Shown here: one piece after another, positions 1 to 18,153 of the stretch
Position numbering within the stretch: the stretch's first letter is position 1
Layout: each line of letters begins with the position of its first letter
Source: Faecalicoccus acidiformans
Lineage (GTDB): Bacteria > Bacillota_I > Bacilli_A > Erysipelotrichales > Erysipelotrichaceae
DNA: 64,000 bases
Direction of reading: 5' to 3'
Assembly: GCF_014202635.1 (NCBI RefSeq)
Contig: NZ_JACHHD010000001.1
Coordinates: 62,001-126,000 of the forward strand
Program-made: the position numbers and the translations under genes
Notes under the pieces: generated by a model
Told to the model about the DNA's origin: nothing
The model's input: the letters and a program-made list of their open reading frames with translations, nothing else
Database searches by the model: none

Positions 1-1167
1 CAATCTCTTATTCAAAAAAGAGCGGAGTTAACTGCGGAACTAGAACAAAATAATGGTACATTAATTGAACTTGCATCTGGTGAGCTTCCTTTGTTATTGG
101 TCGAAAACCTTATTCGAGATATTAAATTGACAGCGGAAGACGAGCATGACGATTTGATTATGCAGCAAGCCTTTGGCCAGCTTGAGACTCTTTTATGTGA
201 GTATAATAAGTTACACACTGAAGATGTTTCTGCAAATCAGAAGTTCGTTGATTTTGTAAAGGAACATACTTTTGAAAGTCAAACCACTCCAGTTTATAAA
301 CTGTCTGACCATGCGTTGTTCCAAGCAAACTCTTTGGCAGAAGATCTACTATCTCTAAAGAAGAAACAAACCATTGATGTGTTAGAAAGGAAACACATTT
401 TAAAGCATCAGCTGGACGAAGTAGATAGTTATCTTTCACTGGATATTAATGAGAAAGAACTTAATGCAAAATTAGCTGAGATTAAAAAACAAGAGAAAGT
501 TCTTGTAGAAATGCAGGTCAAAAAGACATCGCTTGATCAAAAGAGAGCTGAGCTTGAATCAAAATTAGCAATTAAGACATCTGAATACAATCGCATAGTT
601 GAAAGATATTTGGCGGCGGTAGAGTTGACAGACGATGCTAAAAGACAATTAAAGTATTCAAGTATTGCACTTCAAATTATTGATAAATTCTCTGTTGAGC
701 TTCAGAAAAGAAAAACCGGAGCTCTTGGAGAAACAATTACAGATTGCTATAAAAAGCTGGCAAATAAGAAAAATCTTATCAGCCAAATCAAAGTGGATCC
801 TCAATCGCTTAGCCTAAGTTACATAGATAAACAGGGAAATCTCGTGGCAAAAGAGTCGTTATCGGCTGGAGAGAAGCAATTAATGGTTATCGCAATCTTG
901 TGGGCATTGGCTATCTGTTCCGCAAAAAAACTTCCGGTGATCATTGATACACCATTGTCACGATTAGACTCGATGCACAGAAAGTCATTAGTCACAACAT
1001 ATTTTCCTAAGGCAAGTGATCAGACGATAATTCTCTCCACAGATTCTGAAATCGATAGATATTATTATGGCTTGATGAAAGATTATGTGGGTGATGAATT
1101 TACACTTGAGTACAATGAAGAAACTCAGAGTACGAAAATTTTAAAGGGGTATTTTCAAGGGAAATGA
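1..1167 (+). CDS. dndD: DndD, C-terminal part (5' end outside window)
   Basis: DndD is the SMC/RecN-like ATPase of the DNA phosphorothioation machinery, working with DndC and DndE to put sulfur into the DNA backbone. The frame is open from base 1, so the gene starts upstream. About 388 residues are visible, against 650-700 for the whole family. They begin with coiled-coil sequence (roughly residues 90-190 of the visible part, rich in K, E and L) and end with an ABC signature (LSAGEKQL, near base 865), Walker B (PVIIDTPLSRLDS) and an ILSTDSEID segment typical of DndD. The stop overlaps the dndE start as ATGA, so the two are translationally coupled. Family assignment is firm; whether the missing N-terminal Walker A is intact cannot be seen. 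Confidence 0.93.
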   Translation, partial: QSLIQKRAELTAELEQNNGTLIELASGELPLLLVENLIRDIKLTAEDEHDDLIMQQAFGQLETLLCEYNKLHTEDVSANQKFVDFVKEHTFESQTTPVYKLSDHALFQANSLAEDLLSLKKKQTIDVLERKHILKHQLDEVDSYLSLDINEKELNAKLAEIKKQEKVLVEMQVKKTSLDQKRAELESKLAIKTSEYNRIVERYLAAVELTDDAKRQLKYSSIALQIIDKFSVELQKRKTGALGETITDCYKKLANKKNLISQIKVDPQSLSLSYIDKQGNLVAKESLSAGEKQLMVIAILWALAICSAKKLPVIIDTPLSRLDSMHRKSLVTTYFPKASDQTIILSTDSEIDRYYYGLMKDYVGDEFTLEYNEETQSTKILKGYFQGK

Positions 1168-1550
1168 TTATTAAACAAGTTCGCCTTTCGCAACAGGCAA
1201 AAGATCAACTTGCCAGACTAAAAGGAAAGACTGGCATTAAAAACTGGAATATTTTATGCAGATGGGCTTTGACATATTCTCTCGCAGAAAAGACGGTACC
1301 CACGGATATTCCTATTGTTAATGATAGCAATTTGGAAATGTCCTGGTTCACTTTTGGTGGAGACTATTACGAAATCTATGAGGCATTGATTAAGTCGTGG
1401 TGCATAAATATGGGATTGCCAACAGATGATGATACTGTATCAAAGTATTTTCGCCTGAATTTGGAAAGAGGTATCTCACATTTGTGCGGGACAGGCTTTA
1501 TTAAAAACATTGAGGACTTAATCAATCTGGCTGTGAGGGAAAAGGTATGA
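1164..1550 (+). CDS. dndE: DNA sulfur modification protein DndE
   Basis: DndE is the small DNA-binding partner of the DndCDE phosphorothioation complex and is thought to bind nicked or duplex DNA. This 128-residue product has the usual family length. It carries the conserved pattern LKGKTGIKNWNILCRWAL near the N terminus, DSNLEMSWFTFGG in the middle and FRLNLERGISHL plus IKNIEDLI near the end. It overlaps dndD by four bases at the start and the cysteine desulfurase by four bases at the end, which places it inside one operon. No truncation is visible. Confidence 0.93.
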   Translation: MIIKQVRLSQQAKDQLARLKGKTGIKNWNILCRWALTYSLAEKTVPTDIPIVNDSNLEMSWFTFGGDYYEIYEALIKSWCINMGLPTDDDTVSKYFRLNLERGISHLCGTGFIKNIEDLINLAVREKV

Positions 1551-2698
1551 GTATTTATCTGGATTACAATGCATCTTCTCCAATCGATACACGAGTATTA
1601 GATACAATGATGGATATATACAAGAATCACATTGGAAATGCAGATAGCCGTACACATAATCATGGTGATCAAGCCAGAGTAATAGTTGAAAATGCCAGGA
1701 AAGCAGTTGCTGGTTTATTAGGCATTTCATCCTCTGAAGTGTTTTTTACAAGTGGAGCCACAGAGAGTAATAATATTGCGATTCAAGGCTTAGAAGAATA
1801 TGCGCTGAAAAGCGGAAAGAATCACATTATCACTACCTCTATAGAACATAAGGCAATTCTCGAAACTGTAAAATCAATGGTAAGAAGGGGATTTGAAATC
1901 GATATTGTTGATCCGGAGCCTACTGGTAGAGTAAGTATGGAGAAGATTATAGAGAGGGTTCGGGACAATACGCTTCTTGTAAGCGTAATGCATGTTAACA
2001 ACGAGACAGGCATTATTCAGCCAATTGAGGAACTGGGCCGTGAATTAGGAAAAAGAGATATCCTGTTCCACATTGATGCAACACAAAGTTGTGGGAAACT
2101 TGTGCAGGAGTTAAGGAACGCAAAGTACAATATGCTTTCGTTTAGCGCGCACAAGCTAAAAGGACCACAGGGTGTTGGGGCGCTTGTCTTAAGACGCACT
2201 GGATATAAACTTCCTCCGGTCAAGGCTATTATGTATGGAGGACAACAGGAACATGGTATTCGTCCAGGAACAATTCCGGTTGCATTAGTTGGTGGTTGTG
2301 GCAAGGCCTGTGAAATTGCAGCAGACGAATACATGGATAACTCAAAAAAAATAAAAGAGATAAAGACTGCATTACTCGATTTACTAAATGAATCAGGGCT
2401 TTCCTATTCGTTTAATGGAGATCAGGAATATTGCTTAGATTCAACGGTTAATCTTTGCCTTCAAGGGGTTTCTTCGGAAGCGTTAATGCTTTCAACAAAA
2501 GAATACTGCAGCATATCTAATGGATCAGCATGTACTTCAAAAAGTTATGAACCAAGTTATGTGCTGAAGGCTATGGGAATCTCCAACGAGCAAATTGAGG
2601 ATTCAATAAGGATTAGCTGGGGAGCTGATACAGATTTGGATGAGTTCAAAAAGCAATTTTCAAAATTGTTAGAGATGGCAAAAATACTTGTAAATTAA
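1547..2698 (+). CDS. dndA: Cysteine desulfurase of the Dnd cluster (DndA/IscS-like)
   Basis: A PLP-dependent class V aminotransferase-fold enzyme that takes sulfur from cysteine and would supply it to DndC for DNA phosphorothioation. The 383 residues include the N-terminal YLDYNASSP motif, the PLP-contacting SIEHKAI histidine (about residue 101), the PLP lysine in SAHKLKGPQG (about 202) and the catalytic cysteine in NGSACTS (about 329). The start overlaps dndE as ATGA. Dnd clusters usually place dndA first or divergent; here it follows dndE and sits directly before the CBASS genes. It could also serve Fe-S or thiouridine assembly, but the overlap argues for Dnd. Confidence 0.9.
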   Translation: MSIYLDYNASSPIDTRVLDTMMDIYKNHIGNADSRTHNHGDQARVIVENARKAVAGLLGISSSEVFFTSGATESNNIAIQGLEEYALKSGKNHIITTSIEHKAILETVKSMVRRGFEIDIVDPEPTGRVSMEKIIERVRDNTLLVSVMHVNNETGIIQPIEELGRELGKRDILFHIDATQSCGKLVQELRNAKYNMLSFSAHKLKGPQGVGALVLRRTGYKLPPVKAIMYGGQQEHGIRPGTIPVALVGGCGKACEIAADEYMDNSKKIKEIKTALLDLLNESGLSYSFNGDQEYCLDSTVNLCLQGVSSEALMLSTKEYCSISNGSACTSKSYEPSYVLKAMGISNEQIEDSIRISWGADTDLDEFKKQFSKLLEMAKILVN

Positions 2699-2708
2699 GG
2701 TGAATACC

Positions 2709-3725
2709 ATGAAATTAAAACGTGAATTTGCTGATTTTTATAAAGAAATTAGGATTGATAGCGAGACTCATGCTCTAAAAGAGAAGAGAGAAATTTTAGA
2801 AGATGATATTAAATCAAAGCTCCCTGGCATTCTTGTGGATCACAATATCAGTATTAGTAAAACTGACATCAGAATGATTGATCAAGGTAGCTATAAGTAC
2901 AACACTACGATTAAGGATGATATCGTTGATCGCGATGTAGCTGTTATGATTCCGCTGGATACTTCTACTAATTCAGATCCGCGAATAATCAAAGGATATT
3001 TACGTGATGCCATCAATATTTCGCCCCGTACGGTAGCAATTAAAGAGCCTTGTGTCAGGGCTTCGTATTATGAGAATGGAAAAGAATGGCTTCATATTGA
3101 TTTACCTCTTTATGCAACAGACGGTAGTTGTGTCTATCTTGCAAGGGGAAAAGAGTTTAGCAACAGCTATTCTTGGGAAGATGCAGATCCGGATGGCTTA
3201 AACGATTATCTGTGTGGCCAGATCAATGGCAATGATCAGCTACGCAGAATCATATGCTTTATTAAAAAATGGCGGAATGAGCAGTATTCCGGATCAACGA
3301 ATGATCATGAAGTTCCTCCGAGCATAGGGTTGACACTTCTTGCCTGCGACTGCTTTTCTGCACAATCCACGATTGAGGGAGACGATGACTTGCTTTCGTT
3401 GCAAAAGACAATGAAAGGCATTCTGGACAAGTTCACGTATACGGCAGACAGTAGCGGCAATCTGATAAAGACGATAACAAAATATCTTCCTGTAACTCCA
3501 TATACGGACGTTTTTAAGAAGATGAAAGAAAGCAGCTCATACATAACAACGTTTTATAATCGACTTTCAAAAGCGGTTGATAATCTCACAAACGCTGTGA
3601 ATGTTGAGTCCGCACACGATGCCGGCGAGTATGTTCAGAAGGTGTTGGGAGATAGTTTTACAGTTCCAGCCAAAGAAGCAGTTGCGGCATCTGCGCAAAA
3701 CAAGCGAGAACATAGTTTTGGATAA
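2709..3725 (+). CDS. CBASS CD-NTase (cyclic oligonucleotide synthase)
   Basis: Predicted cGAS/DncV-like nucleotidyltransferase that makes a cyclic di- or trinucleotide alarm signal on phage infection. The 338-residue protein shows the GS motif (GSYKYNT, residues 60-66), a metal-binding D-x-D (D74, D76 in DRDV) and a third acidic residue in HIDLPLY (D131). The ATG at 2709 was chosen because AAGGTG lies six bases upstream; that site overlaps the stop of the preceding cysteine desulfurase, which suggests coupled translation. A GTG at 2700 sits inside the SD sequence and is less likely. The protein ends in HSFG: a C-terminal glycine is what Cap2 conjugates to targets in type II CBASS. The nucleotide product cannot be told from sequence. 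Confidence 0.88.
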   Translation: MKLKREFADFYKEIRIDSETHALKEKREILEDDIKSKLPGILVDHNISISKTDIRMIDQGSYKYNTTIKDDIVDRDVAVMIPLDTSTNSDPRIIKGYLRDAINISPRTVAIKEPCVRASYYENGKEWLHIDLPLYATDGSCVYLARGKEFSNSYSWEDADPDGLNDYLCGQINGNDQLRRIICFIKKWRNEQYSGSTNDHEVPPSIGLTLLACDCFSAQSTIEGDDDLLSLQKTMKGILDKFTYTADSSGNLIKTITKYLPVTPYTDVFKKMKESSSYITTFYNRLSKAVDNLTNAVNVESAHDAGEYVQKVLGDSFTVPAKEAVAASAQNKREHSFG

Positions 3726-3728
3726 GAT

Positions 3729-5396
3729 ATGACTGTTAAAGAGATTTTAGAATCATATGAGGAGATCACTGTAGAAGAGCAAGTTCTTGAAGGAGTGCTT
3801 TTCTTTACTCTGTTTGAGAAGAAATTCCTGTTTTTTGCTCCTGAGAAAGATGACCCTTCTTCGATGGCTACGGTATATCTTTACGATGACAATCTACTGG
3901 ACTTTCCACATGTCATGCTCCGGGAAAACTCAATTATCGATGGAAAATACCTCCCAAATGGAACATATAGATGGATATGTCTTTTTGAACAAGAGAGCAT
4001 AGTAAACACGATTGTTTCATATGAGGATAAGATTTTCGATTGCGTTGACCGGTTAATTGAACTGCTATCCATGACTTCAGTAGAGCGTGAAAGAGAATTT
4101 CAGAAAGAATTCATGTACTACTGGAACAGCGAATCTGCTGGAAATAACAAGGTCTCTGTATATTTAGAGCAAGCTACGCAATTCACAGAATTGGATGCGT
4201 TCTACGGCGAAAAAAAAGTCCGCTTAATTCAGAAAGGGCTAAATCTCTCCGATATAGACGACAGAGATAAGTCTGAGCGGAAATGGACTCATCATATTGA
4301 AAATGATGTGTTCTATATTCCAGTAACAGATAGCCGGGGCATTCTTCCACCGCACAGAGGTTACCAATGGACTGCGAATGAAGTGCAAAACATCGTTTAC
4401 GGAAAGCAAATAGAACATATCAGCGACGACACATTTCAGTCGATTAAAAGCAAGGTCCCCAAAACGCAAGATGTTATTCTTGTTTTCGGAATGAGAACAG
4501 ATCTTTCAAACGTTTATTTTGCCTTGAAAGTAAAGTGTAAGAACAGCAACAATCATACATTGCTAGAGAAATTACTCTCAGATATTGTAACGCTTGAGTC
4601 TCTCCCTACAGAGAGAAAGGATTACTCATATTTGTGTGAGCAAATAGGAAATGATATAGGATTGCTGAACAAAAGAATTTTACTTATTGGTGCTGGTTCT
4701 TTGGGAAGTTATGTCGCATTTGAGCTTGTGAAGAACGGTGCAAAGTACTTGAAGATATATGATGGCGACAAGTTTGAAGAAGAAAATGTTCTTCGTTGGG
4801 CATACGGAGGCATTGGCAAGGGCTCAAACAAAGCAACAACTATTCAGATTTTGCTAAAGTTGCTTCATCCAGAAATCAATATAGAAGTATGCGATGCAAA
4901 TATAAGCGCGCATTCTCTGATGGAGGAAATCAGCAACAAGGATTTGATCATATTTACTATTGGAAGTAGCGACGAACAAATAAAACTGAATAGTGTATTA
5001 AAAAGAGCAAACTGTCCCATACCTGCAATCTTTGTTTGGCTTGAGGAAGGTGGAACTAATAGCCATATTCTATTTGTAAATTATCAGATGCCTGGATGTT
5101 TTGAATGTCTGTATACAGATTCAAACGGAGAACTTGTGAATAATAGAGCTAGGAAGAATTCATCGGCAGCTACGGAAAATAACATAATTCGAAATGGTTG
5201 TGGAGGTACAAGGGCTGCCTATGGAACAGCGATTCTTCTTAGAACAACAGCAGCCTTATTGGATGTAATACGAGATTATGATGAGCATAAGATTATGACG
5301 AATACTCTGATAGATATAACACCAGAAAGAATCACTATTTCTGACACGGAATTCCCGATGGAGGCATGTAATTGTTGTGGAGATACGGGCAAATAG
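3729..5396 (+). CDS. cap2: CBASS Cap2, E2-E1 fusion ubiquitin-like ligase
   Basis: Cap2 activates and conjugates the C terminus of the CD-NTase to cellular targets, priming it for signalling. The 555-residue protein has an N-terminal E2-like region (conserved GTYRWICLF near residues 82-90) and a C-terminal ThiF/E1 domain. The E1 part starts with the nucleotide-binding loop ILLIGAGSLGS (about residues 316-326). It continues with a candidate E1 cysteine in NGCGGTRAAYG (about 490) and two cysteine pairs, CFEC (about 457) and CNCC (about 549), that resemble the E1 zinc site. It begins three bases after the CD-NTase stop and overlaps cap3 by 20 bases. Order and domain make-up match type II CBASS well. 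Confidence 0.88.
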   Translation: MTVKEILESYEEITVEEQVLEGVLFFTLFEKKFLFFAPEKDDPSSMATVYLYDDNLLDFPHVMLRENSIIDGKYLPNGTYRWICLFEQESIVNTIVSYEDKIFDCVDRLIELLSMTSVEREREFQKEFMYYWNSESAGNNKVSVYLEQATQFTELDAFYGEKKVRLIQKGLNLSDIDDRDKSERKWTHHIENDVFYIPVTDSRGILPPHRGYQWTANEVQNIVYGKQIEHISDDTFQSIKSKVPKTQDVILVFGMRTDLSNVYFALKVKCKNSNNHTLLEKLLSDIVTLESLPTERKDYSYLCEQIGNDIGLLNKRILLIGAGSLGSYVAFELVKNGAKYLKIYDGDKFEEENVLRWAYGGIGKGSNKATTIQILLKLLHPEINIEVCDANISAHSLMEEISNKDLIIFTIGSSDEQIKLNSVLKRANCPIPAIFVWLEEGGTNSHILFVNYQMPGCFECLYTDSNGELVNNRARKNSSAATENNIIRNGCGGTRAAYGTAILLRTTAALLDVIRDYDEHKIMTNTLIDITPERITISDTEFPMEACNCCGDTGK

Positions 5397-5925
5397 CAAA
5401 TGTGTAAAAATAGCTCTTCCGAATGGCAAAGTGGTTGACGTTCTCAGTCCAGTTATGGATGAAATTTGTAAATGGATCCAGGATGATTGTTCTAAGCCAG
5501 AAAGCGGTGGATATATAGTAGGATATCAACATGAACATACGGGAAATATTTCTTTAGAAGCTGTATCACATCCGCATCTTATGGATATAAAGAATCGCTT
5601 AAGATTTGATATAAGAGATCCACGGCATCAACTGTTCCTAAAAAAGGCCAAACGTCATAAGAGCTATTATATGGGCGTATGGCATACACATCCACAAACA
5701 ATTCCGGTGCCGTCAGATATTGATTGGAATGACTGGAATGAAACCATCCACTCTGATAAGACAGGGTGCCAATATGTCTTTTTTGTCATTGCTGGTACTG
5801 ATGAATGGCGACTATGGGTTGGGGATTTTATAACCGGAGAAATCCAGGAAGCTTTTGAATGTGAAAAAGATACGAACGGAATCTATATAAAAGAGAGCGT
5901 GTTGCAAGATGAAGAAACTTTGTGA
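5377..5925 (+). CDS. cap3: CBASS Cap3, JAMM isopeptidase
   Basis: Cap3 is a JAB/MPN+ metalloprotease that removes CD-NTase conjugates formed by Cap2. The 182-residue protein carries the full JAMM signature: a glutamate in PESGGYIVG (E42), the zinc histidines in GVWHTHP (H103 and H105) and the S-x-x-D following (S113, D116). The start is a GTG at 5377 inside the end of cap2, with GGAGG about 12 bases upstream; no better in-frame start is visible. It overlaps the next gene by 17 bases. All catalytic residues are present. Confidence 0.9.
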   Translation: MEIRANSKCVKIALPNGKVVDVLSPVMDEICKWIQDDCSKPESGGYIVGYQHEHTGNISLEAVSHPHLMDIKNRLRFDIRDPRHQLFLKKAKRHKSYYMGVWHTHPQTIPVPSDIDWNDWNETIHSDKTGCQYVFFVIAGTDEWRLWVGDFITGEIQEAFECEKDTNGIYIKESVLQDEETL

Positions 5926-6733
5926 AACGATTTCAAGTAACGGAAGACAGATATTAGAGATAATAGCTCTAATAATTGTGACTTCTATACCGTGGGTTGT
6001 TGATTTACAGGAGATATTCAAGGAGTATCTGACTAATCAGCCCATTTCTCCGGATGATTTTTTTTGGCAAGCCGCGCTTAGAATGGGCAAACCCGTCGCC
6101 TCTGTTATATTATTTTTTGCCGTTCTTATAGTAATAAGGAAGTTCAATCAGGGATTCGTTATGAATCGTAAGCGTGTATATCACGACTACTGTTATGCAT
6201 GGTATTGGTTCTGTGCAAAAATCCTTGAAATTAAGAGCTGCGATTTAGTGCTCGTACCAATCCATATGCAATTCAAGTTGGTAATAAGAGCTACTTTTCA
6301 AGAATACCCACTGGATGAAACAGAATATCCGGTTGTTGAGAATGAATCAGACAGTAAAGTATTAGAAACGAATCAAGAGGATCCGACCAGGGAAATCAAC
6401 CTTGTGTTGGAAGACACGTATGAAATTGAAGCGCGACAGATTCCGAAATCGAAACAAGGATATAGGACAATCAAGATCAGCAGAAACAGTGGCGCAGACA
6501 GTTCTCGTCATTTTAGCCAAAAATACATTGAGGCAATAATCAAGTGTATCAGAGACTTAAAGGGGAAAGTGTCAGTAAACGTGTATGCCACAACTAATCC
6601 AATGAATACAAAGCATATCGCAAAAAGAGCATTTGGTTTAGGTGAAAGAGGAAATGTTGAGCATCTCTATGTGTTCCAACAGAGTAAGGACGGAAGAAGA
6701 CGCTTTGAGGAAAAAGGCAAAAAGATTTTCTGA
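5909..6733 (+). CDS. Probable CBASS effector with two membrane segments
   Basis: Last gene of the CBASS string, in the position normally held by the effector that the cyclic nucleotide activates. The 274-residue protein has two predicted transmembrane helices, about residues 16-34 (EIIALIIVTSIPWVVDL) and 57-76 (ASVILFFAVLIVI). A basic YHDYCYAWYWFC segment follows, and then a soluble domain of about 170 residues. I do not recognise that domain. Its pattern (INLVLEDTYEI, then TIKISR, then a helix and VSVNVYATT) could be a nucleotide sensor of the SAVED or two-TM-beta kind. By analogy with other two-TM effectors it would disrupt the inner membrane. The effector role is inferred from position and topology, not from homology. 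Confidence 0.65.
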   Translation: MKKLCETISSNGRQILEIIALIIVTSIPWVVDLQEIFKEYLTNQPISPDDFFWQAALRMGKPVASVILFFAVLIVIRKFNQGFVMNRKRVYHDYCYAWYWFCAKILEIKSCDLVLVPIHMQFKLVIRATFQEYPLDETEYPVVENESDSKVLETNQEDPTREINLVLEDTYEIEARQIPKSKQGYRTIKISRNSGADSSRHFSQKYIEAIIKCIRDLKGKVSVNVYATTNPMNTKHIAKRAFGLGERGNVEHLYVFQQSKDGRRRFEEKGKKIF

Positions 6734-7536
6734 GGATCTATCGGCAGGCATGTGAATATTCCGGATCCTGTTGAGCCATCTGTCCGGCGATAGAGAGCCA
6801 CCCTTCCGGAGTGAGAGAGCCATCCGCCAGCAGTTTATTCCACGGTGCTCTTGACATGAGCCTCTGTCGCACATGAATGCCCGGCAATGCAGCAGATAGG
6901 CGCTTTCAGCCCTATTGCCGAGGCAGAAAGCCTATCATGTGCTACTCATGTAAAGAGCCTTTCGCGGCATAAAGCTGCTGGCTCTATGTCACCGGAACCG
7001 TGGCTCCACCGCCGCCGGACATGTGGCGCTGCCGAGCCGTAATATTCAGCATGCAAAGAAGTTTATCTTCAGAAGATTTGCTTGCTATGTTTGCATTAAT
7101 AGAGGCTCGACGCCTACCGTATTATACATGAGGCTAAACCACCAGTCGGTTGTTCCCATGCCTTCCGGATGCTATGTTTTCCCCAAAGGAATATGAGCGG
7201 AATGGACAGGATCCGGAGCATGGTCATATAGAACGGCATATAACGAAGACAGAACGGAAGGAAACATTGTCTATGTCGTATGAGAAAAGCTGCCAGGATG
7301 CAGCAGGGGAAAAATTTTTGAGGTAGCGATTTTCCGCTTTTGGAATGAAAGTGCTAAGGACTCGGAGCTCTGGGATCTGTTCCAGAATGCCCGAGTCTTT
7401 TTCGCTGACACGGGAATATTTGCAAAAGTTGCACTGCGAGTACAACCTCGTGACGAATGGTGCATTCCACGTCAGTTCCGCCTCCAAGTATACCTTTTTA
7501 TAATGGTGATAATCCAAGGAGAAGGAGGTGGTACCA
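6734..7536. other. Non-coding stretch after the CBASS operon, with hairpins
   Basis: No convincing protein gene lies in these 800 bases. Two clear inverted repeats occur: GATAGGC/GCCTATC (6895-6901 with 6930-6936, extended inward by TTTC/GAAA) and AGAGCC/GGCTCT (6954-6959 with 6980-6985). A terminator-like hairpin ends the stretch at 7359-7402. A short minus-strand frame at 6738-6857 (39 codons, reading NKLLADGSLTPEGW and then stopping) looks protein-like but has a badly spaced ribosome site. It may be the remnant of a larger gene. The stretch could be a long 3' leader or trailer RNA, or eroded element DNA. Confidence 0.5.
7359..7402 (+). terminator. Rho-independent terminator
   Basis: GACTCGG (7359-7365) pairs with CCGAGTC (7391-7397), with an inner TCTGG/CCAGA helix, followed by TTTTT. 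It could end the Dnd-CBASS transcript 625 bases after the last gene. Confidence 0.7.
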
Positions 7537-7911
7537 ATGCAAATTAAATATGATTTGGACAAAGTCGGCATTGGCAGCCGCCTTCAGGAAGAGCGCATTC
7601 GAGCAGGGCATACGCAGGAATCACTGGCGGAGGCCATGGGAATCACCGACAAATATATCAGTAAGGTGGAAAACGGGGCTGCGGCTCCATCCCTTTCGTA
7701 CGTTATGAAGTTTTCCGACATTACCAGGACCGATGTTTGTTATCTGCTGCTGGGGATCAAAGCAAAGACTGATGTTACAGCAGCCAGCATGGTCATGGAA
7801 GCAACAGCGCCGTATGGCAAATCGCAAACCAAGTTGTCAAAGAAGGGTCAGAAGATCTGCGATGAGATGATGAAAAAGATCAAAGAGGTACTGGAAGAAA
7901 ACAATATCTGA
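7537..7911 (+). CDS. XRE-family helix-turn-helix regulator
   Basis: A 124-residue DNA-binding protein with a Cro/CI-type helix-turn-helix at about residues 7-62: IGSRLQEERIRAGHTQ, then AEAMGITDKYISKVENG, then PSLSYVMKFSD. The C-terminal half is short and charged with no recognised domain. The ATG at 7537 was chosen because AGGAGG lies just upstream; the GTG at 7528 overlaps that site. Terminators flank the gene (7359-7402 and 7980-8026), so it looks like a single-gene unit. It probably controls the integrative element or itself; target sites are unknown. Confidence 0.85.
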   Translation: MQIKYDLDKVGIGSRLQEERIRAGHTQESLAEAMGITDKYISKVENGAAAPSLSYVMKFSDITRTDVCYLLLGIKAKTDVTAASMVMEATAPYGKSQTKLSKKGQKICDEMMKKIKEVLEENNI

Positions 7912-7979
7912 CGTAAACGAAAGGTCTGCCAACGAACAAGAGTATCTGTTAGCTGGTAGTCTGATCATAGGAAAAGGAT

Positions 7980-8026
7980 GTCCGCAGGACTGCCAGGTTT
8001 CAACAGGGTAGCTCTGCGGACTTTTT
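7980..8026 (+). terminator. Rho-independent terminator after the XRE gene
   Basis: GTCCGCAG (7980-7987) and CTGCGGAC (8014-8021) form a perfect 8-bp stem followed by TTTTT. Confidence 0.8.
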
Positions 8027-8076
8027 ACATACCCATATATTGACATGAATTAACACATCAGGGAGGGGGTCAGAAC

Positions 8077-9471
8077 ATGCTCAGTAAACTATTCTCGAAA
8101 AAGCAGAGGACAGAGCCTCAGCTGGAGAAGCTAACCGGAGATTACCGGATGGTTCCTGAAGAGGACATGCGGCGCTATGAGTTTCAGGAGAAACTGTTTC
8201 GGACGATCGTGTCGGTTGAAGCAGATGCTCATAACGAAGAAAATCCCATGGCGATTGCTGTCCGTGTCATGAAGGCATGCTGTGATTTTTATGATGCTGA
8301 CTGGTGCGGCATTCTGATTGCAGACCTGCAGACGCAGGTGTTCATTCCTGAGATCTGGTACGACTCGGAGATTGGACCGATGCAGGATACGCTGTTCAAC
8401 GATATCGAATTTACGGAAGAATTTGCTACTTGGGCACAGCACCTGATTGAGCAGAAGCCGCTGATCATTCCGGATGTTGAACAGATCCGTGAGAGCAAAC
8501 CGAAAGAGTATGAGGCATATCAGCGGTTGGAAGCCAGGTCGATCATGGGTGTTCCTTTTGGTCAGCATCCCTTGGGCTTCATGGTCATCCGTAACATGAA
8601 GCAGTATACGGACCGGCCGGAACCGCTGCAGCTTGCCTGCTTTGTTGCCATGATGATGTTGGAACAGATCCGGCGCACCAGAATGGAAAAGCTGACAAAG
8701 ATGCATGATGAGGACGACGGCAGGTTCCGCATCCGCTATAACATCCTCGGACCGCATAATTTTGTAATTGACGGAAAAGAGATCTATGAACAGGATCTGC
8801 CGCATCCGAACCGGCGTGCATGGATCATCATGCTTTACATGGTTCTGCATAAGCGTCCGGTGGATCAGCAGAAGCTGATTGCCGACAACTGGCCGGATGA
8901 AGAAGTCGATACAGCCAGGAACAATATGCGGTAGGCGATCTTCCGGCTGCACAACGACCTGGCAGCGTATCATGACGTGAAGGTGATCGATACCAGAAGC
9001 AGGATGATGGATTTCTCCGGTGAAGTGAATGTGACAACAGATGCGGATGAGATGGAGGATCTTTATAATCGCGCAAAGAATCTGCCGGACGGGGATGACA
9101 AGATCATTCTTCTGAAGAAGGCCTTTGAGCTGTATCGCGGCAGACTGTTCATCCAGGGAGAGGATGACATCGGAACCTGGCTCTATGCATATACGACGCA
9201 TTACAATCAGGTCTACGTCGATTTGACGTCGGCGCTGCTGACGACACTCGGTCATATCAAGGACTATCGCTGCATTATGGATTACGGGCCGAGAGCGCTG
9301 GAGATCGAGCCCGGCATTCTCACAGCCTACTACTGGATCATCATAGCGGCAGATGAAACAGGCAACAGTGTGGCACGGGAGAAGTTCCTCCAGAAAGCAG
9401 CTGAGGATCTGATCGATGAGGAAAATGAGAAGCTGATGAAGCTGCTGGCTCTGCAGAACCATATGAGCTGA
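8077..9471 (+). pseudogene. GAF domain plus SARP/BTAD-type activator, split by an in-frame amber codon
   Basis: The frame runs from ATG 8077 (GGAGGGGG upstream) to a TAG at 8932-8934 and then stays open in the same frame to TGA at 9469-9471. The first 285 residues hold a GAF-like sensor domain (about 45-205) and the start of a winged helix (FVIDGKEIYEQDLPHPNRRAW onward). After the stop, AIFRLHNDLAAY completes the recognition helix of the winged HTH. A BTAD-like helical repeat region follows (YNRAKNLP, KKAFELYRGRLF, YGPRALEIEP). Read through, the product would be about 464 residues. The stop most simply reflects a CAG-to-TAG change in an otherwise intact gene. Downstream lie phased GTAAC repeats of the kind SARP proteins bind. 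Alternatives are amber read-through or two separate polypeptides; a restart at ATG 8977 would lack the full DNA-binding helix. Confidence 0.8.
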
Positions 9472-9490
9472 TTTCCTCATAAAAGTGCCG

Positions 9491-9594
9491 AGTAACAGGA
9501 AAGTAACAGACTGTGTAACGGCAAAGTAACAGGCAAAAAAGATTATTTTTGGAGTAACAGAATAGTAACGGCCTCTGTAGCAGGCCAAGTAACA
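9491..9594 (+). promoter_or_regulatory. Two blocks of helically phased GTAAC direct repeats (candidate SARP operator)
   Basis: GTAAC starts at 9492, 9503, 9515 and 9526, then at 9554, 9565, 9577 (GTAGC variant) and 9589. Within each block the spacing is 11-12 bases; the blocks are 28 bases apart. Most copies read AGTAACA or AGTAACG. SARP/BTAD activators bind heptamer direct repeats at 11-base spacing ahead of a -10 element. Nine bases after block one is GATTAT (9541-9546), a possible -10. The coding gene just upstream is a GAF/BTAD regulator, which fits. Confidence 0.7.
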
Positions 9595-9664
9595 CCCGCC
9601 CGGTAGGGTAGCCAAGGCAAAAACAAAATGCTTTGGAAGCCTTAGAACGGACGGGTGATTTTTT
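9594..9664 (+). terminator. Large hairpin followed by T run (terminator or attenuator)
   Basis: ACCCGCCCG (9594-9602) pairs with CGGACGGGT (9648-9656) with one G-T wobble. An inner AAGGC/GCCTT helix is present and GATTTTTT follows. It could end the regulator transcript or attenuate a transcript started at the GTAAC repeats. Confidence 0.55.
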
Positions 9665-9825
9665 GGAAGAAACATCGCAGCAGGAGGCGGTTGTTTTTGC
9701 AGGAAACTGTGAAAGCAGCCGCCTCTTATTTTTATGCAAACAGATCGGCGTTCGATGCCGGTCGCCTCCGGTTTCAGGGATTTGCAGCTGAAACACAAAT
9801 CTCAAACGAAATCGTAGGAACTGAC

Positions 9826-10122
9826 ATGAGAACAACAAAATTCAATATGAAAGACTTTGGCCTGAGACTGCGCAAGCTGAGACAGGCCTGCGGATTAACC
9901 CAGGAAGAGTTCTGCGACGTGATCGGGATCAGCGATACCCATTACCGGAAGATCGAAGCCGGTACCAGGACCGGATCGCTGGAGCTGATCGTGGAGATGG
10001 CGGAGTACTTCCATGTGAGTCTTGATTATCTGCTGCTGGGAGAGACAGAATCCAACAGCAAGGCGAAGAGGGATATCTTGGCTGTCATCGAGAGCCTTAC
10101 AAGGATTGCCCGGGAGCTGTAA
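9826..10122 (+). CDS. Small XRE-family helix-turn-helix regulator
   Basis: A 98-residue protein that is almost all helix-turn-helix: FGLRLRKLRQACGLTQEEF, then DVIGISDTHYRKIEAG, then SLELIVEMAEYFHVSLDYLLLGE (residues about 11-68). The ATG at 9826 follows GTAGGAA; the open frame extends upstream to 9655 but that part is not protein-like. It lies directly after the GTAAC repeats and the 9594-9664 hairpin, so the repeats may control it. It converges on the AbiE genes, with a strong shared terminator between. Confidence 0.85.
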   Translation: MRTTKFNMKDFGLRLRKLRQACGLTQEEFCDVIGISDTHYRKIEAGTRTGSLELIVEMAEYFHVSLDYLLLGETESNSKAKRDILAVIESLTRIAREL

Positions 10123-11854: not shown

Positions 11855-12253
11855 CCGTAGGAGGGGTTTCCCTCCTACGGCGACATGGATCTTTGAAAAC
11901 TGAATATCATTCATCAGATACATCCCTGTACGGGCGTGAAAATGTCAGCCGGTTGAAACATACGCAATGACTCCGGAAGGATGAGCGAGAAATATGCCGT
12001 TCATATATGCAGGACAGCTACCTGCAAGGCGATGAAACGTACGGGCACAATGGTACTTCTGTCCAGCCACAGCCCCGGGTGGAACCGGGATCACGCAATG
12101 GGGGCAGCTGCGGGAGAACCTCGCGGGGGTGAGAGGCCCATGGAGCTGAAAGCATTCAGCCGTCTGATGACTTCCCGGTCACTTGGGTGTCGAGGATAAA
12201 TAAGTGAAAAGGAAATGAACGTTACGCCGCCGGCCTTATTACGACCGGCGGTG
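11855..12253 (+). ncRNA. Candidate structured non-coding RNA ahead of the toxin-recombinase genes
   Basis: The 620 bases between abiEi and the mazF-like gene hold no convincing protein but a run of local hairpins. These are CCGTAGGAGGG/CCCTCCTACGG (11855-11865 with 11870-11880), GCAGG/CCTGC (12009-12013 with 12021-12025) and CCCGG/CCGGG (12074-12078 with 12085-12089). Next are CCTC/GAGG (12119-12122 with 12133-12136), GCTGAA/TTCAGC (12145-12150 with 12155-12160) and CGCCGCCGG/CCGGCGGTG (12225-12233 with 12245-12253). A series of stable helices without coding potential suggests a structured leader or regulatory RNA. I cannot name a known family. Confidence 0.4.
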
Positions 12254-12290
12254 ATACATATACAGACATTTCTGTAGAGAGGAATTGCCA

Positions 12291-12665
12291 ATGAAAGAGT
12301 TTATCTACCGCAAGGGCGATGTATTCCTTGCGGATCTTGGTATTCCTCATGGCTCAGAGCAGGGCGGCCGCCGTCCGGTCGTGATCATTCAGAACGATGA
12401 CGGCTGCGTGTATTCTCCAACAGTAACGATGGTGCCGATGACAACGGCGATCAAGAAACCTTTCCAGAAGTCCCACTACATTCTCCGGTATTCGGACTGC
12501 ATCCGTTACCGATCGATGGTTGAGGCAGAGCAGATCCAGACTATTGACAAGGACCGCATCATTCGGCGGATCGGTCATCTGGATCCAAGGGATATATCCG
12601 GAATCGAAGAGGCCATGAGGAATCATTTCGGCTTCGATATCCCGGACTGTATTGAGGCTCCGTAA
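12291..12665 (+). CDS. PemK/MazF-family toxin (endoribonuclease fold)
   Basis: MazF-type proteins cleave mRNA at short sequences. The 124-residue product has the family N-terminal core GDVFLADLGIPHGSEQGGRRP followed by VVIIQND, the PTVTMVPMTT strand, and a MVEAEQIQTID segment, all in the usual order and at normal length. ATG 12291 follows AGAGGAA; a TTG two codons earlier is less likely. No antitoxin of the MazE type is adjacent. The next small gene does not resemble one, so this may be a solitary or element-control MazF homologue, as often seen beside large serine recombinases. Confidence 0.85.
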   Translation: MKEFIYRKGDVFLADLGIPHGSEQGGRRPVVIIQNDDGCVYSPTVTMVPMTTAIKKPFQKSHYILRYSDCIRYRSMVEAEQIQTIDKDRIIRRIGHLDPRDISGIEEAMRNHFGFDIPDCIEAP

Positions 12666-12894: not shown

Positions 12895-14769
12895 ATGGCA
12901 AAAGTCGATGTAATCAAGGCTCAGGTATCTGTGACTGACCGCAGAAGACGCAGCAAATCCATAGAACGAAAGCGCGTTGCGGCATACTGCCGGGTCAGCA
13001 CGGACAGTGAGGATCAGCTGAACAGCTACAGATCGCAGGTTCAGTATTATACAGATAAGATCAGCGAAAACGTGGACTGGATGATGGCCGGAATCTATGC
13101 GGATGAAGCGATTACCGGCACCCAGGTGGCAAAGAGAGAAGGCTTCCAGAAAATGATCAATGACTGCATGAGCGGTCAGATTGATATGGTCATCACGAAG
13201 TCGATCTCGCGCTTTGCCCGCAATACATTGGACACACTGAAGTATGTCCGGATGCTGAAGGAGAAGGATATCGCCGTCTTCTTCGAAGTTGAGAATATCT
13301 CTTCCAACGTCAAGAAGGGACTGGCAATGAAGATGTCCCGTGGCGAGATCGTGGGCTTTGCCGGAGCGCTTGGATATGACTATGATCCGGAGACAAAGAC
13401 CATCTCAGTGAATGAGGAAGAGGCGAAGGTAGTCCGGTATATCTTCAAACGCTATATCGAAGGAATGGGAGCGCATGTAATCGCCAGGGAGCTGGAGCAG
13501 ATGGGAGCGCTCACCAATCGCGGCAACAAGAGCTGGTACGATTCAACCGTTCTCGGGATCATCAAGAATGAAAAGTATAAAGGGGATTTGCTGCAGGGAA
13601 AGACATTCACAGTCGATCCGATCACAAAACGCAGACTCGGAAACCTGGGAGAGGTTGACCAGTATCTGATGAAGGATCATCATGAGCCGATCATTTCAGA
13701 AGAGATGTGGGAGCAGGCGCAGGCGATCCTGAAAAGAAGAACCGTAGTCCATGAGAATTCAAACGTAGATCCGAATTCATACCGGGAACAATACAGCCGG
13801 AAATTCGCTTTCAGCTGTATGGTCAAATGCGGCTTCTGCGGAGCATCACTGACACGGCGTTCCTGGCACAGCGGATCCAAGTATCATAAGAATATCTGGC
13901 TGTGCATTTCCTCTTCCAAATACGGTAAGAAGAACTGCCCGGAAAGCAAGGGCATTGCTGAGGAAGTCCTGGAAAGTGCATTCGTCGAATCCTACCGGAT
14001 GATCACGAATGATCATAAGGATGTCCTGGAAGAATTTCTGCAGAGAACAGAAGAGGAGCTGCATTCCGATGCGACGCTGCAGGAGATCGATCGCGTAAAA
14101 AAAGAACTGAAGCAGCTTGATCAGAAGATGCAGCGTCTTCTGGATATGCATCTGGAACAGCAGATCGACTTCGGTACCTATGAGGACAAAAAGCTGGAGA
14201 TCATCAAGGAGCAACAGCTGAAGACAACAGAGCTTAAAAGACTACAGGGTGAAGCTGATATCGAGAAGGATTTACGCAAGAGGTTGGACGCAATGCGCAA
14301 GCTCCTTTCCGATGCTCCTATACTCAAGGAATTCGACAGAAATGTTTTTGAAAGCATCGTTGAAAAAGTTATTGTAGGCGGGTATGATGACGAGGGAAAT
14401 GCAGATCCGTCGATGATCACATTTGTCTATAAGACCGGGTTTGAAGACAAGAAAAAGGGTGACGATTACAAGCCTCCGAGGAGGAATTCCAAGTCTAAAA
14501 AATTGTCGTCACAACCTACCGACGACAGCAGCAAATTGTCACAACAAGCTATTGACGTTGCATATAGAAAGTGTGGTACTTTTATCCCGCAAAGCTTCGG
14601 ACAGTGTTTTGAAGAGATCATCGAATGGATAAAAATATTTATCAGATTGCAGAGCAGATACTCCAATTGCATCAGAAGGCCTATGAGATTTATTTGCCGC
14701 TCGTTGAAGATGTGTGCAGCCGAACTGTGTCAGAAGAAGAATTGTCGCATTTGTTGGATGATCTATTGA
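12895..14769 (+). CDS. Large serine recombinase, probably internally deleted
   Basis: Site-specific recombinase of the TndX/TnpX type that would excise and integrate the element. The catalytic serine is S35 in AAYCRVSTDSEDQ, and SRFARNTLDTL follows in the resolvase domain. The recombinase domain (about 145-270), a zinc ribbon (CGFCG with a distal CISSS-NCPES pair) and a coiled coil (about 370-470) are also present. At FFEVENISSNVKKG (about 128-142) the roughly 25 residues that normally separate the end of the catalytic domain from the long helix appear to be missing. The C-terminal 50 residues (SRYSNCIRRPMRF onward) are not family-like and overlap another gene in a different frame. It is probably inactive; family assignment is sure. 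Confidence 0.88.
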   Translation: MAKVDVIKAQVSVTDRRRRSKSIERKRVAAYCRVSTDSEDQLNSYRSQVQYYTDKISENVDWMMAGIYADEAITGTQVAKREGFQKMINDCMSGQIDMVITKSISRFARNTLDTLKYVRMLKEKDIAVFFEVENISSNVKKGLAMKMSRGEIVGFAGALGYDYDPETKTISVNEEEAKVVRYIFKRYIEGMGAHVIARELEQMGALTNRGNKSWYDSTVLGIIKNEKYKGDLLQGKTFTVDPITKRRLGNLGEVDQYLMKDHHEPIISEEMWEQAQAILKRRTVVHENSNVDPNSYREQYSRKFAFSCMVKCGFCGASLTRRSWHSGSKYHKNIWLCISSSKYGKKNCPESKGIAEEVLESAFVESYRMITNDHKDVLEEFLQRTEEELHSDATLQEIDRVKKELKQLDQKMQRLLDMHLEQQIDFGTYEDKKLEIIKEQQLKTTELKRLQGEADIEKDLRKRLDAMRKLLSDAPILKEFDRNVFESIVEKVIVGGYDDEGNADPSMITFVYKTGFEDKKKGDDYKPPRRNSKSKKLSSQPTDDSSKLSQQAIDVAYRKCGTFIPQSFGQCFEEIIEWIKIFIRLQSRYSNCIRRPMRFICRSLKMCAAELCQKKNCRICWMIY

Positions 14770-16221: not shown

Positions 16222-16779
16222 TTGAGTCAAATTAAAAAGATCACTTGTTCTGCTTTGTTTTTAGCTATCGGATTTGTGTTGCCTTTCTTTACCGGACAGA
16301 TTCCTCAAATCGGTAGTATGCTTTTGCCGATGCACATTCCGGTATTCTTATGCGGTCTGATCTGTGGAGGACCTTATGGGCTGGTGATAGGCTTGATCTT
16401 GCCTGTTTTACGCAGCATGATCTTTGGAATGCCGCCGATGTTCCCGACTGCTGTCGCAATGGCATTTGAACTTGCCACTTACGGTTTTTTGATTGGGATG
16501 GTTTACAGTCATGCCAAATGGCAGTGTATCAAGCAGCTTTATATTGCATTGTTGATCTCCATGGTCGCTGGCCGCCTCGTTTGGGCAGCAGTCACCTGTA
16601 TTCTAGTCGGACTTTCCAATGTGAATGCTATGATGTTGATCAATGGAGCTCTTGTCAGTGCAGTTCCGGGAATTGTCGTACAGCTGATCTTGATTCCGCT
16701 GATCATGGTCACTTTGGATAAAGCAAAAGTGGTTCCATTTAAAAAAAGCTATACCGAAACAAAAGAGTGCATCCAGTAG
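16222..16779 (+). CDS. ECF transporter S component-like membrane protein
   Basis: A hydrophobic protein of about 185 residues with five or six membrane helices and glycine-rich loops (ICGGPYGLVIGLILPVLRSM, then FELATYGFLIGM). It resembles the substrate-binding S component of group II ECF vitamin transporters. These use a shared EcfAAT module, which is not in this window. The start is taken as TTG 16222 because AGAGGGG lies about eight bases upstream and a promoter sits just before; the ATG at 16096 would overlap the previous gene and terminator. The substrate cannot be told. Its terminator is shared with the convergent gene. Confidence 0.75.
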   Translation: MSQIKKITCSALFLAIGFVLPFFTGQIPQIGSMLLPMHIPVFLCGLICGGPYGLVIGLILPVLRSMIFGMPPMFPTAVAMAFELATYGFLIGMVYSHAKWQCIKQLYIALLISMVAGRLVWAAVTCILVGLSNVNAMMLINGALVSAVPGIVVQLILIPLIMVTLDKAKVVPFKKSYTETKECIQ

Positions 16780-16792
16780 ATGCACCCTTTTT
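16761..16792. terminator. Bidirectional terminator
   Basis: GTGCATC (16767-16773) pairs with GATGCAC (16779-16785), with A run upstream and T run downstream, between convergent genes. Confidence 0.75.
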
Positions 16793-17339
16793 ATAAGACT
16801 TGCAGATCGTGTAACGACCGGTTGATCAAAAAGATACTGAAGAGATCAAAGATTCCGATCATACTGATGAAGGTTCCAGCCAACATCACGAATCCTTCAA
16901 AAGAAGCGATCGGGAAAAAGAGAAGGAACGATCCCATCAAGACCGGTAAAACGATTGCCAATAAAGGCCCCCAAATAGATCCTCCGGCTTTTTTGACTTG
17001 GATCGCGGAAGAAATCTTACTGATTCCATTTACGATCATGCCAATACCGGCTACCATAGGCAAACTAGCCAATACCCAGGCGGGATTCAGATAGACTGCC
17101 ACGGAAACAACACTCAAACTGGCTCCCAATAAAAGATCCGCAATTGAATCGTATCCCTTTTTACGATCCGCGAACCAACGTGCGATCATATAGATTCCGT
17201 AAGCAAAACCAAGTAAGGCCAATAAGTTGGCCATCAACAAGCTTGTCATAGCCGGCTCGATCAAAATCAAAGCACCTGCTAATATCAAAGCGACAGACTC
17301 CATCAAGGATGGGCCCCAAAAATCAATTCTTCTAAGCAT
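16791..17339 (-). CDS. DUF308 (HdeD-like) membrane protein
   Basis: A 182-residue protein of six hydrophobic segments arranged as three similar helical pairs, as in HdeD/DUF308 proteins. Examples are SVALILAGALILIEP, LLGASLSVVSVAVYLNP, then GPLLAIVLPVLMGSFLLFFP. GAGGT precedes the ATG. HdeD is linked to acid resistance in enterobacteria, but the role in Bacillota is not established. A second DUF308-like segment is fused to a hydrolase-like domain at 51251-52528. Confidence 0.75.
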   Translation of the reverse strand: MLRRIDFWGPSLMESVALILAGALILIEPAMTSLLMANLLALLGFAYGIYMIARWFADRKKGYDSIADLLLGASLSVVSVAVYLNPAWVLASLPMVAGIGMIVNGISKISSAIQVKKAGGSIWGPLLAIVLPVLMGSFLLFFPIASFEGFVMLAGTFISMIGIFDLFSIFLINRSLHDLQVL

Positions 17340-17433
17340 ATCATATACCTCTTTTCTAATGCTGGTTTTATAATACAGTTAAATAAGGTCAATTTCTGTG
17401 TCTTGAACAACAGAATCAAAAAAAGGTGAAAAA

Positions 17434-18123
17434 ATGGAAACATATACGAAGATCATTCAAAATCATCCTTTGTTTCAAGGGATGGACGGACAAGAAATCG
17501 AAACGTTGATGAAACGATTTCGTGCCCATATTCAGTCATTTCAAAAAAAATCAGTATTTTGGGATTCTAATCAAAGAGTGGATGAGATGGGAATCGTATT
17601 GGAGGGGAATGTACACATTGAACGAATCGATGAAAATGGAATCACATGTTTGATCGATGTATTATTACCAGGCGATAGTTTAGGAGAGATGTTCTCCATC
17701 AGTCAGGCTCCTTTAAATACGACGTTTCGTATTCTTAAAGACGCCAAGATACTTTTCTTCAATGCCCGTCGAGTGATCGAATCACCGGTCAGCGATCCTT
17801 TAGAGGTGCGGTTTCTTCAAAACTTAGGAAAGGTATTATCAAAAAAATCATATTCTTTTTCAAAACGCTTGGCAGATACTGTTCATCGAACGACACGGCA
17901 ACGCCTCCAGGATTATCTTTCGGCACAATATCATATCAAAGGCAATCAGAAATTCACCATTCCTTTGGATCGCCAGGATCTGGCGGATTTTCTATTTGTG
18001 GATCGCAGCGCCATGTCTAAAGAATTGAGTAAGATGCAAGAGGAAGGACTGCTGATCTATCATAAACGCGATTTCGAATTCCTCGATAAGATGCCGATTA
18101 CGGATAAAGAAGAAGAGGATTAA
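17434..18123 (+). CDS. Crp/Fnr-family transcription regulator
   Basis: A 229-residue regulator with an N-terminal cyclic-nucleotide-binding-type beta roll (about 10-125; EMGIVLEGNVHIERID, LLPGDSLGEMF). A C-terminal winged helix follows (about 150-215; LDRQDLADFLFVDRSAMSKEL). No cysteine cluster for a 4Fe-4S centre like that of Fnr is visible, and the cAMP-contact arginine pattern is not clear, so the ligand is unknown. It lies alone, divergent from the DUF308 gene and convergent with typA. Similar regulators in anaerobes often control energy metabolism or metal stress. Confidence 0.85.
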   Translation: METYTKIIQNHPLFQGMDGQEIETLMKRFRAHIQSFQKKSVFWDSNQRVDEMGIVLEGNVHIERIDENGITCLIDVLLPGDSLGEMFSISQAPLNTTFRILKDAKILFFNARRVIESPVSDPLEVRFLQNLGKVLSKKSYSFSKRLADTVHRTTRQRLQDYLSAQYHIKGNQKFTIPLDRQDLADFLFVDRSAMSKELSKMQEEGLLIYHKRDFEFLDKMPITDKEEED

Positions 18124-18153
18124 AAAAACAACGAAGTTTTGAACCTCGTTGTT
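18122..18153. terminator. Bidirectional terminator
   Basis: AACAACGA and TCGTTGTT (ending 18153) pair between the convergent Crp-family and typA genes; seven T follow on the minus strand. Confidence 0.7.

Follow-up and report, generated by a model that had tools for sequence, protein, structure and literature searches.

Probable recent loss by an amber codon of a GAF-SARP activator, with its candidate direct-repeat operator left behind, in a defence-carrying genomic island of Faecalicoccus acidiformans

An amber codon (TAG, 8932-8934, + strand), in frame with the ATG at 8077, splits an otherwise open frame of 464 codons (8077-9471) in the 64-kb stretch of the Faecalicoccus acidiformans genome analysed here, hereafter the window. 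We consider it probable that a GAF-SARP activator of HTH2, an XRE-family gene of the surrounding island, was recently lost through this codon and that its operator was left orphaned; as part of the same joint reading, the regulator would be one component of a module that serves regulation and integration on a mobile genomic island. We infer that the intact protein perceives some signal with its GAF domain, binds eight direct repeats lying just downstream of its own gene and, once bound, recruits RNA polymerase to a weak promoter for HTH2 transcription, HTH2 itself having a control role. A conserved glutamine codon midway along the recognition helix would then have become TAG by a recent C-to-T change. 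The resulting product of 285 residues would keep the GAF domain and be unable to activate, because its DNA-reading helix is incomplete and both the wing and the entire BTAD domain are missing, and the operator would stay as an orphan. The predicted consequence, narrower than the silencing of the element that had been suggested at first, is loss of activation at one operator-promoter region (9492-9609); HTH2, in turn, might act for or against excision or the expression of cargo genes.

The frame comprises 285 codons from the ATG at 8077, the TAG, and 178 further codons up to the TGA at 9469-9471. Its first part (8077-8934, + strand) encodes a truncated regulator of 285 amino acids with the GAF domain, a linker and the beginning of the winged helix, whereas the untranslated 3' part (8935-9471, + strand) holds the remaining recognition helix, the wing and the BTAD domain, all of which truncation at residue 285 takes away. 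The codon context, NNMR-stop-AIFRLHNDL, is as the preliminary description gave it. Among 15 family members, Pfam GAF was matched in 13 at E values up to 1 (best 1.2e-4), BTAD in nine (best E 3.4e-6) and Trans_reg_C in only two (best 0.11); the GAF score of the window copy lies below the curated Pfam cut-off, and its 3' part alone gave no match. An AlphaFold2 model of the intact regulator of L013, the closest relative (mean pLDDT 79.6, pTM 0.64; 15-sequence alignment), consists of a GAF-like first domain, a winged helix with its recognition helix at residues 277-295, and a helical C-terminal domain. Foldseek and VIA-align, the latter serving as a second look at the Foldseek matches, such that absent folds support no conclusion, returned AfsR (Z 16.9) and EmbR (2fez, Z 16.8) as top fold matches of residues 217-464, and GAF structures at Z 12-14 for residues about 55-200. 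The Pfam matches and these best folds bear out the GAF/SARP identity first proposed from the letters alone, and the model places codon 286 midway along the recognition helix, where the stop had been said to fall.

As modelled, the protein thus has three domains, in the order GAF, SARP-type winged helix and BTAD. The order of winged helix and BTAD is that of AfsR/SARP proteins and the GAF fold is recognisable, yet the SARP domain stands behind the GAF domain instead of at the N terminus; the protein would work like a SARP without being a canonical small or large one. For AfsR, PMC10936776 describes base contacts by T88 and R92 of the recognition helix and conservation of W74. Codon 286 would correspond to T88 and the invariant R290 to R92, a mapping obtained by counting from the shared tryptophan (W272 here) and from the agreement of R92 with R290, not from a residue alignment.

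Between the regulator gene and HTH2 (9826-10122, + strand; the predicted target) lie eight direct heptamers, those at 9492, 9503, 9515 and 9526 forming a first candidate operator block of GTAACAG type (9492-9532, + strand) and those at 9554, 9565, 9577 and 9589 a second (9554-9595, + strand), with a spacing of 11-12 bp within blocks. A -10-like hexamer, TAGGGT (9604-9609, + strand), follows 8 bp past the last heptamer and is the predicted activator-dependent promoter. We collected 24 relatives of the regulator, 22 by scanning genome contigs and two from viral contigs. A regular expression for a four-unit chain at 11-12 bp had the array as its only match in the window, and 15 of the 24 relatives have a match at the corresponding position. 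As for the other nine, L014 and L030 lack the region, L023, L027, L028, L029 and L032 are cut short by contig ends, L033 contains a stretch of N, and no array was seen within the 8 kb examined of L020. None of 5000 dinucleotide shuffles of the intergenic stretch contained even a three-unit chain, and the three-unit pattern of the window's word occurs once in the whole genome. Moreover, a layout-only scan, blind to the word, ranked the array site first: it scored 44-45 of 48 in the window and in L012, L013, L015, L016, L017, L035, L022 and L024, and 44 in L018, L026 and L021 when a block gap of 38 was allowed, as against a best score of 37 elsewhere in the 64-kb window. In all 12 aligned loci the last unit is followed, after 8 bp, by TAGGGT, TAGAGT or TAAAGT.

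This arrangement recalls SARP promoters, for which PMC10936776 gives direct repeats 11 or 22 bp apart, the 3' repeat lying 8 bp from the -10 element, and PMC10972967 heptameric direct repeats with spacers of 4-15 nt. The window's repeats are likewise spaced by 11 bp, some by 12 bp, and the 8-bp distance to -10 elements, which are themselves predicted, holds in the 12 aligned loci and in the more distant L093. The 4+4 repeats might instead bind HTH2 itself, mark an origin of replication or transfer, or play a structural role in the DNA, and the amber would remain a null allele; we regard this as unlikely, although worth keeping in view. Iterated repeats do also occur at replication origins, and in L021 the array stays with HTH2 while cargo separates it from the regulator gene; direct repeats at 11-12 bp placed 8 bp before a weak -10-like hexamer are, however, the layout reported for SARPs, and XRE regulators usually bind inverted repeats. 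Further downstream, in the stretch 9683-9735 (+ strand), the HTH2 leader contains a strongly conserved hairpin (9683-9726), present in 12 of 12 aligned loci and possibly involved in attenuation. RNAalifold gave 37 pairs in the leader, four of them with change on both sides; since the main hairpin is kept largely by identity and G-U pairs, we claim it only as terminator-like.

The layout recurs in relatives and the repeat word differs by clade, being GTAACAG in the window's clade, GTCACAG/GTAACAG in L018, L021 and L026, and (G/A)TAACGG in L022 and L024. L093, whose regulator is 27% identical, has the same XRE-regulator-XRE order and two four-unit blocks of TGCGAC(C/T) with internal spacings of 11,12,11 and 11,12,12, as in the window, followed by 8 bp and TAGGCT in a register set by eye. 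Two human-faecal records in a phage collection (L100 and L101; regulators of 25-26% identity) carry ATAACAC and ATAAGAC-like units that scored 23-25 of 28 in a per-block scan and only 38 and 35 in the eight-copy scan; these two depart from the 8-bp rule, with 10 bp before the best -10-like hexamer. Layout scans of two other distant relatives, L092 and L094, found no array. A search with the array pattern returned three viral stretches, two of them on contigs already known and the third (L102) a low-complexity repeat, where the regulator was not found and which was therefore set aside. The layout is thus kept broadly, though not in every case, and what ties the word to the regulator is a correlation across a small number of clades. 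The block-to-block distance is 28 bp in the window's clade (9526 to 9554), 38 in L018, L021 and L026, and about 18 in L093, in steps of 10 bp that are close to one DNA turn; it is about 41 and 52 in L100 and L101.

We then compared the interrupted codon across the 24 relatives, 20 of which cover it (all except L029, L031, L032 and L033). Codon 286 is CAG in every one of the 20 and TAG only in the window, as expected from the single base change that had been suggested as the origin of the stop. Since the pairs L017/L034 and L024/L025 are identical and L018 and L019 agree at 99.9%, the 20 loci amount to about 17 distinct sequences; identities range from 93-95% (L012-L015) down to about 54% (L024), and distant homologues, at about 18-29% identity, have other residues near this codon. 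The frame is protein-like on either side of the stop, with 93-95% identity to the nearest relatives, and it is not the case that homologues are always encoded as two genes, a pattern that would have spoken against inactivation. Where a record title names a source for a relative, it is ruminant gut. L089, which comes from a genome assigned to the same family as the window's, and L013, labelled Solobacterium, encode proteins with 100% identity, as would suit a host in the Erysipelotrichaceae. A search of plasmids found no relative of the regulator.

Pairwise dN/dS among near relatives is about 0.03-0.13, for the whole gene and for both of its parts, and the gene is therefore normally under strong purifying selection. 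Between 8770 and 9186, window and L013 differ at two bases only, 8932 and 9069, the former making the stop, while upstream in the gene they differ by 6-25% in 100-base bins; this contrast points to a mosaic haplotype and a young stop. Apart from the TAG, the window's regulator copy has no further stop or frameshift, and recent inactivation without any other lesion, as initially proposed, agrees with both observations. On this comparison, TAG 8932 is a single, recent nonsense mutation of a gene that purifying selection otherwise maintains, with the signature of a nonsense pseudogene, namely a conserved gene broken by it in one lineage only and intact elsewhere. By itself, the stop is an ordinary null allele, modest, yet useful as a natural knock-out. 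Replacement singletons are more frequent in the window (5 of 16) than in four relatives (8 of 85), a nominal difference (Fisher p 0.03, uncorrected); we do not rely on it for relaxed selection, as recombination makes branch counts rough. Along the module (7520-10122), closeness to L012, L013, L014 and L015 shifts with position, a sign of recent recombination between islands.

The TAG could be an error in the assembly consensus, or an allele that is mixed or in the minority, the gene being intact in most cells. The source is a 1.77-Mb draft in 31 contigs, the change is a single transition with no accompanying lesion, and a search of viral contigs for the exact amber context gave no second instance. 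Nevertheless, the site lies in no repeat or homopolymer, the regulator is present in a single copy (no other match in the genome at E 0.001) that leaves no second copy to confuse the assembly, and single-base consensus errors are rare in deep short-read assemblies, all of which makes an artefact improbable. We give similarly little credence to a truncated GAF protein that is functional in its own right, for instance as a dominant-negative or signal-titrating short form: although residues 1-285 hold the whole GAF fold in the model and the regulator start is intact, none of the covering relatives makes such a form, and the nominal singleton excess hints at relaxed rather than kept function. Re-initiation was also considered and rejected; the next in-frame starts, GTG 8977 and ATG 9004, lie beyond the recognition helix, and a C-terminal product could not rebuild the DNA-reading helix.

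We further searched the genome for signs of recoding. None of the 44 tRNAs detected with the Rfam tRNA model, with anticodons assigned by ARAGORN, has a CTA anticodon, a search that could miss unusual tRNAs; both ordinary glutamine tRNAs (TTG and CTG) are present, as is release factor 1 (RF1), above its cut-off. A pylS model matched below its cut-off only, and it likewise matched 13 of the 14 control genomes, one of them above the cut-off. TAG terminates 17 of 91 non-overlapping ORFs of at least 100 amino acids within 104 kb around the site, and the RNA fold of the 100 nt after the stop is no better than that of shuffles (z = 0.32). Neither a change of genetic code nor amber suppression finds support in the tRNA, RF1 and pylS searches, and the suppressor tRNA that the preliminary description had suggested looking for did not turn up. 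Programmed or suppressed read-through yielding a low level of full-length activator, the other outcome contemplated there, is hence very hard to credit: the frame is conserved on both sides and undecayed beyond the stop, as would equally be expected of a young mutation, while CTA tRNAs were absent from the 44, pylS stayed below cut-off, RF1 is present, the downstream fold is unremarkable and no relative has a stop at codon 286.

The favoured reading, loss of an activator with its operator retained, can be set beside other damaged copies of the regulator. L030 has a frameshift, a stop at codon 172 and no 3' part, L031 retains nothing upstream of codon 298, its remaining 3' part following the end of a different recombinase gene, and L014 lacks the start region. 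Within the clade at 75% identity or above, there are thus four damaged copies including the window's, as against intact ones in L012, L013 and L015; L029 and L032 of the same clade are cut by contig ends and were left out of the count. The operator is kept in the window and in L031, where its first block is seen, and lost together with HTH2 in L014 and L030. Coming from draft assemblies, this pattern is suggestive only. In two genomes the regulator gene is broken at the same heptamer, TATCATG (codons 297-299; L031 7598-8010 and L030 1540-1620), which abuts an element end in L031 and is joined by a deletion to a DUF3800 gene at a similar heptamer in L030; it may be a recombination target. Distant copies, too, look interrupted: L095 (G090:C4:206489-206953) has one TGA and one TAG inside the match, and G043:C1:36232-37496 (L003, L010) consists of two halves in different frames.

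The regulator gene is part of a shared gene order, XRE, GAF-SARP, XRE, PemK/MazF and integrase, which in the window runs on the + strand from HTH1, an XRE-family gene upstream of the regulator (7537-7911), through HTH2 and a PemK/MazF-like gene (12285-12665) to a large serine recombinase (12895-14769), homology to relatives stopping near 14568. For integration, the window's clade has a serine recombinase and L018 with its kin a tyrosine integrase, and genes outside the shared order differ between relatives. The window cargo includes DndD, DndE, DndA-like, type II CBASS and AbiEi/AbiEii genes. PADLOC reported DndD, DndE, DndA/SspA-like and type II CBASS components (cyclase, E1-E2, JAB and 2TM effector) in the window at 91-6733 and in L078 at 16628-19224; DndB- and DndC-like genes in the upstream stretch were named by eye only. 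An Rfam pemK RNA (RF02913) lies at 12047-12143, upstream of the PemK/MazF gene, with 57.1 bits over a gathering threshold of 34.8. A search for empty sites in congeners gave no clean junction for the island ends.

The regulator-operator pair merits pursuit more than the null allele does. This pair from gut Bacillota, a GAF-SARP protein and its presumed operator of 4+4 direct repeats, is apparently undescribed; our searches of an open-access library for regulators or islands of this kind yielded no paper recognised as describing it, although such a negative carries little weight. The chief known role of SARPs is antibiotic activation in actinomycetes, and the pair sits here in the module of an island carrying Dnd, CBASS and AbiE genes. 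If it works as proposed, the switching of such defence islands becomes directly testable and the family is a set of matched regulator-operator variants. More speculatively, and with real doubt on our part, the family might be a signal-controlled switch of defence-carrying mobile islands across Bacillota, its eight-repeat layout fixed and its repeat sequence co-evolving with the regulator so as to insulate the islands of different clades; activator loss (through the amber here; in three close relatives through a missing start, a deletion or a nested insertion) would lock the island in place with its defences kept.

Among known systems, the code-15 gut phages, in which TAG is recoded to glutamine, likewise have TAG where relatives encode glutamine, according to PMC9523058; here, in contrast, a single site is affected, a CTA tRNA was not found, RF1 is present and TAG ends 17 of 91 nearby ORFs. 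BrxR-type regulators (PMC9122589) similarly have their gene beside phage-defence genes on a mobile element, although BrxR is a WYL protein whose fold is unrelated to that of the present regulator. In the BrxR system, the same paper reports a premature TAG with little effect on restriction, which cautions against assuming a strong phenotype for the amber described here. EmbR of Mycobacterium tuberculosis shares the winged helix-BTAD fold (2fez) and carries a C-terminal FHA domain, according to PMC10936776, in place of the N-terminal GAF domain. AfsR/SARP activators of actinomycetes (AfsR, DnrI, ActII-ORF4) have in common with the window's regulator the winged helix and BTAD fold and, according to PMC10936776, direct repeats that are spaced by roughly a turn of DNA and stop 8 bp from a poor -10 element. 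The present system differs from them in its domain order, with GAF leading where they have an N-terminal SARP domain, in residing on Bacillota mobile islands instead of in antibiotic clusters, and in its eight repeats, arranged in two blocks with a spacing of 11 or 12 bp.
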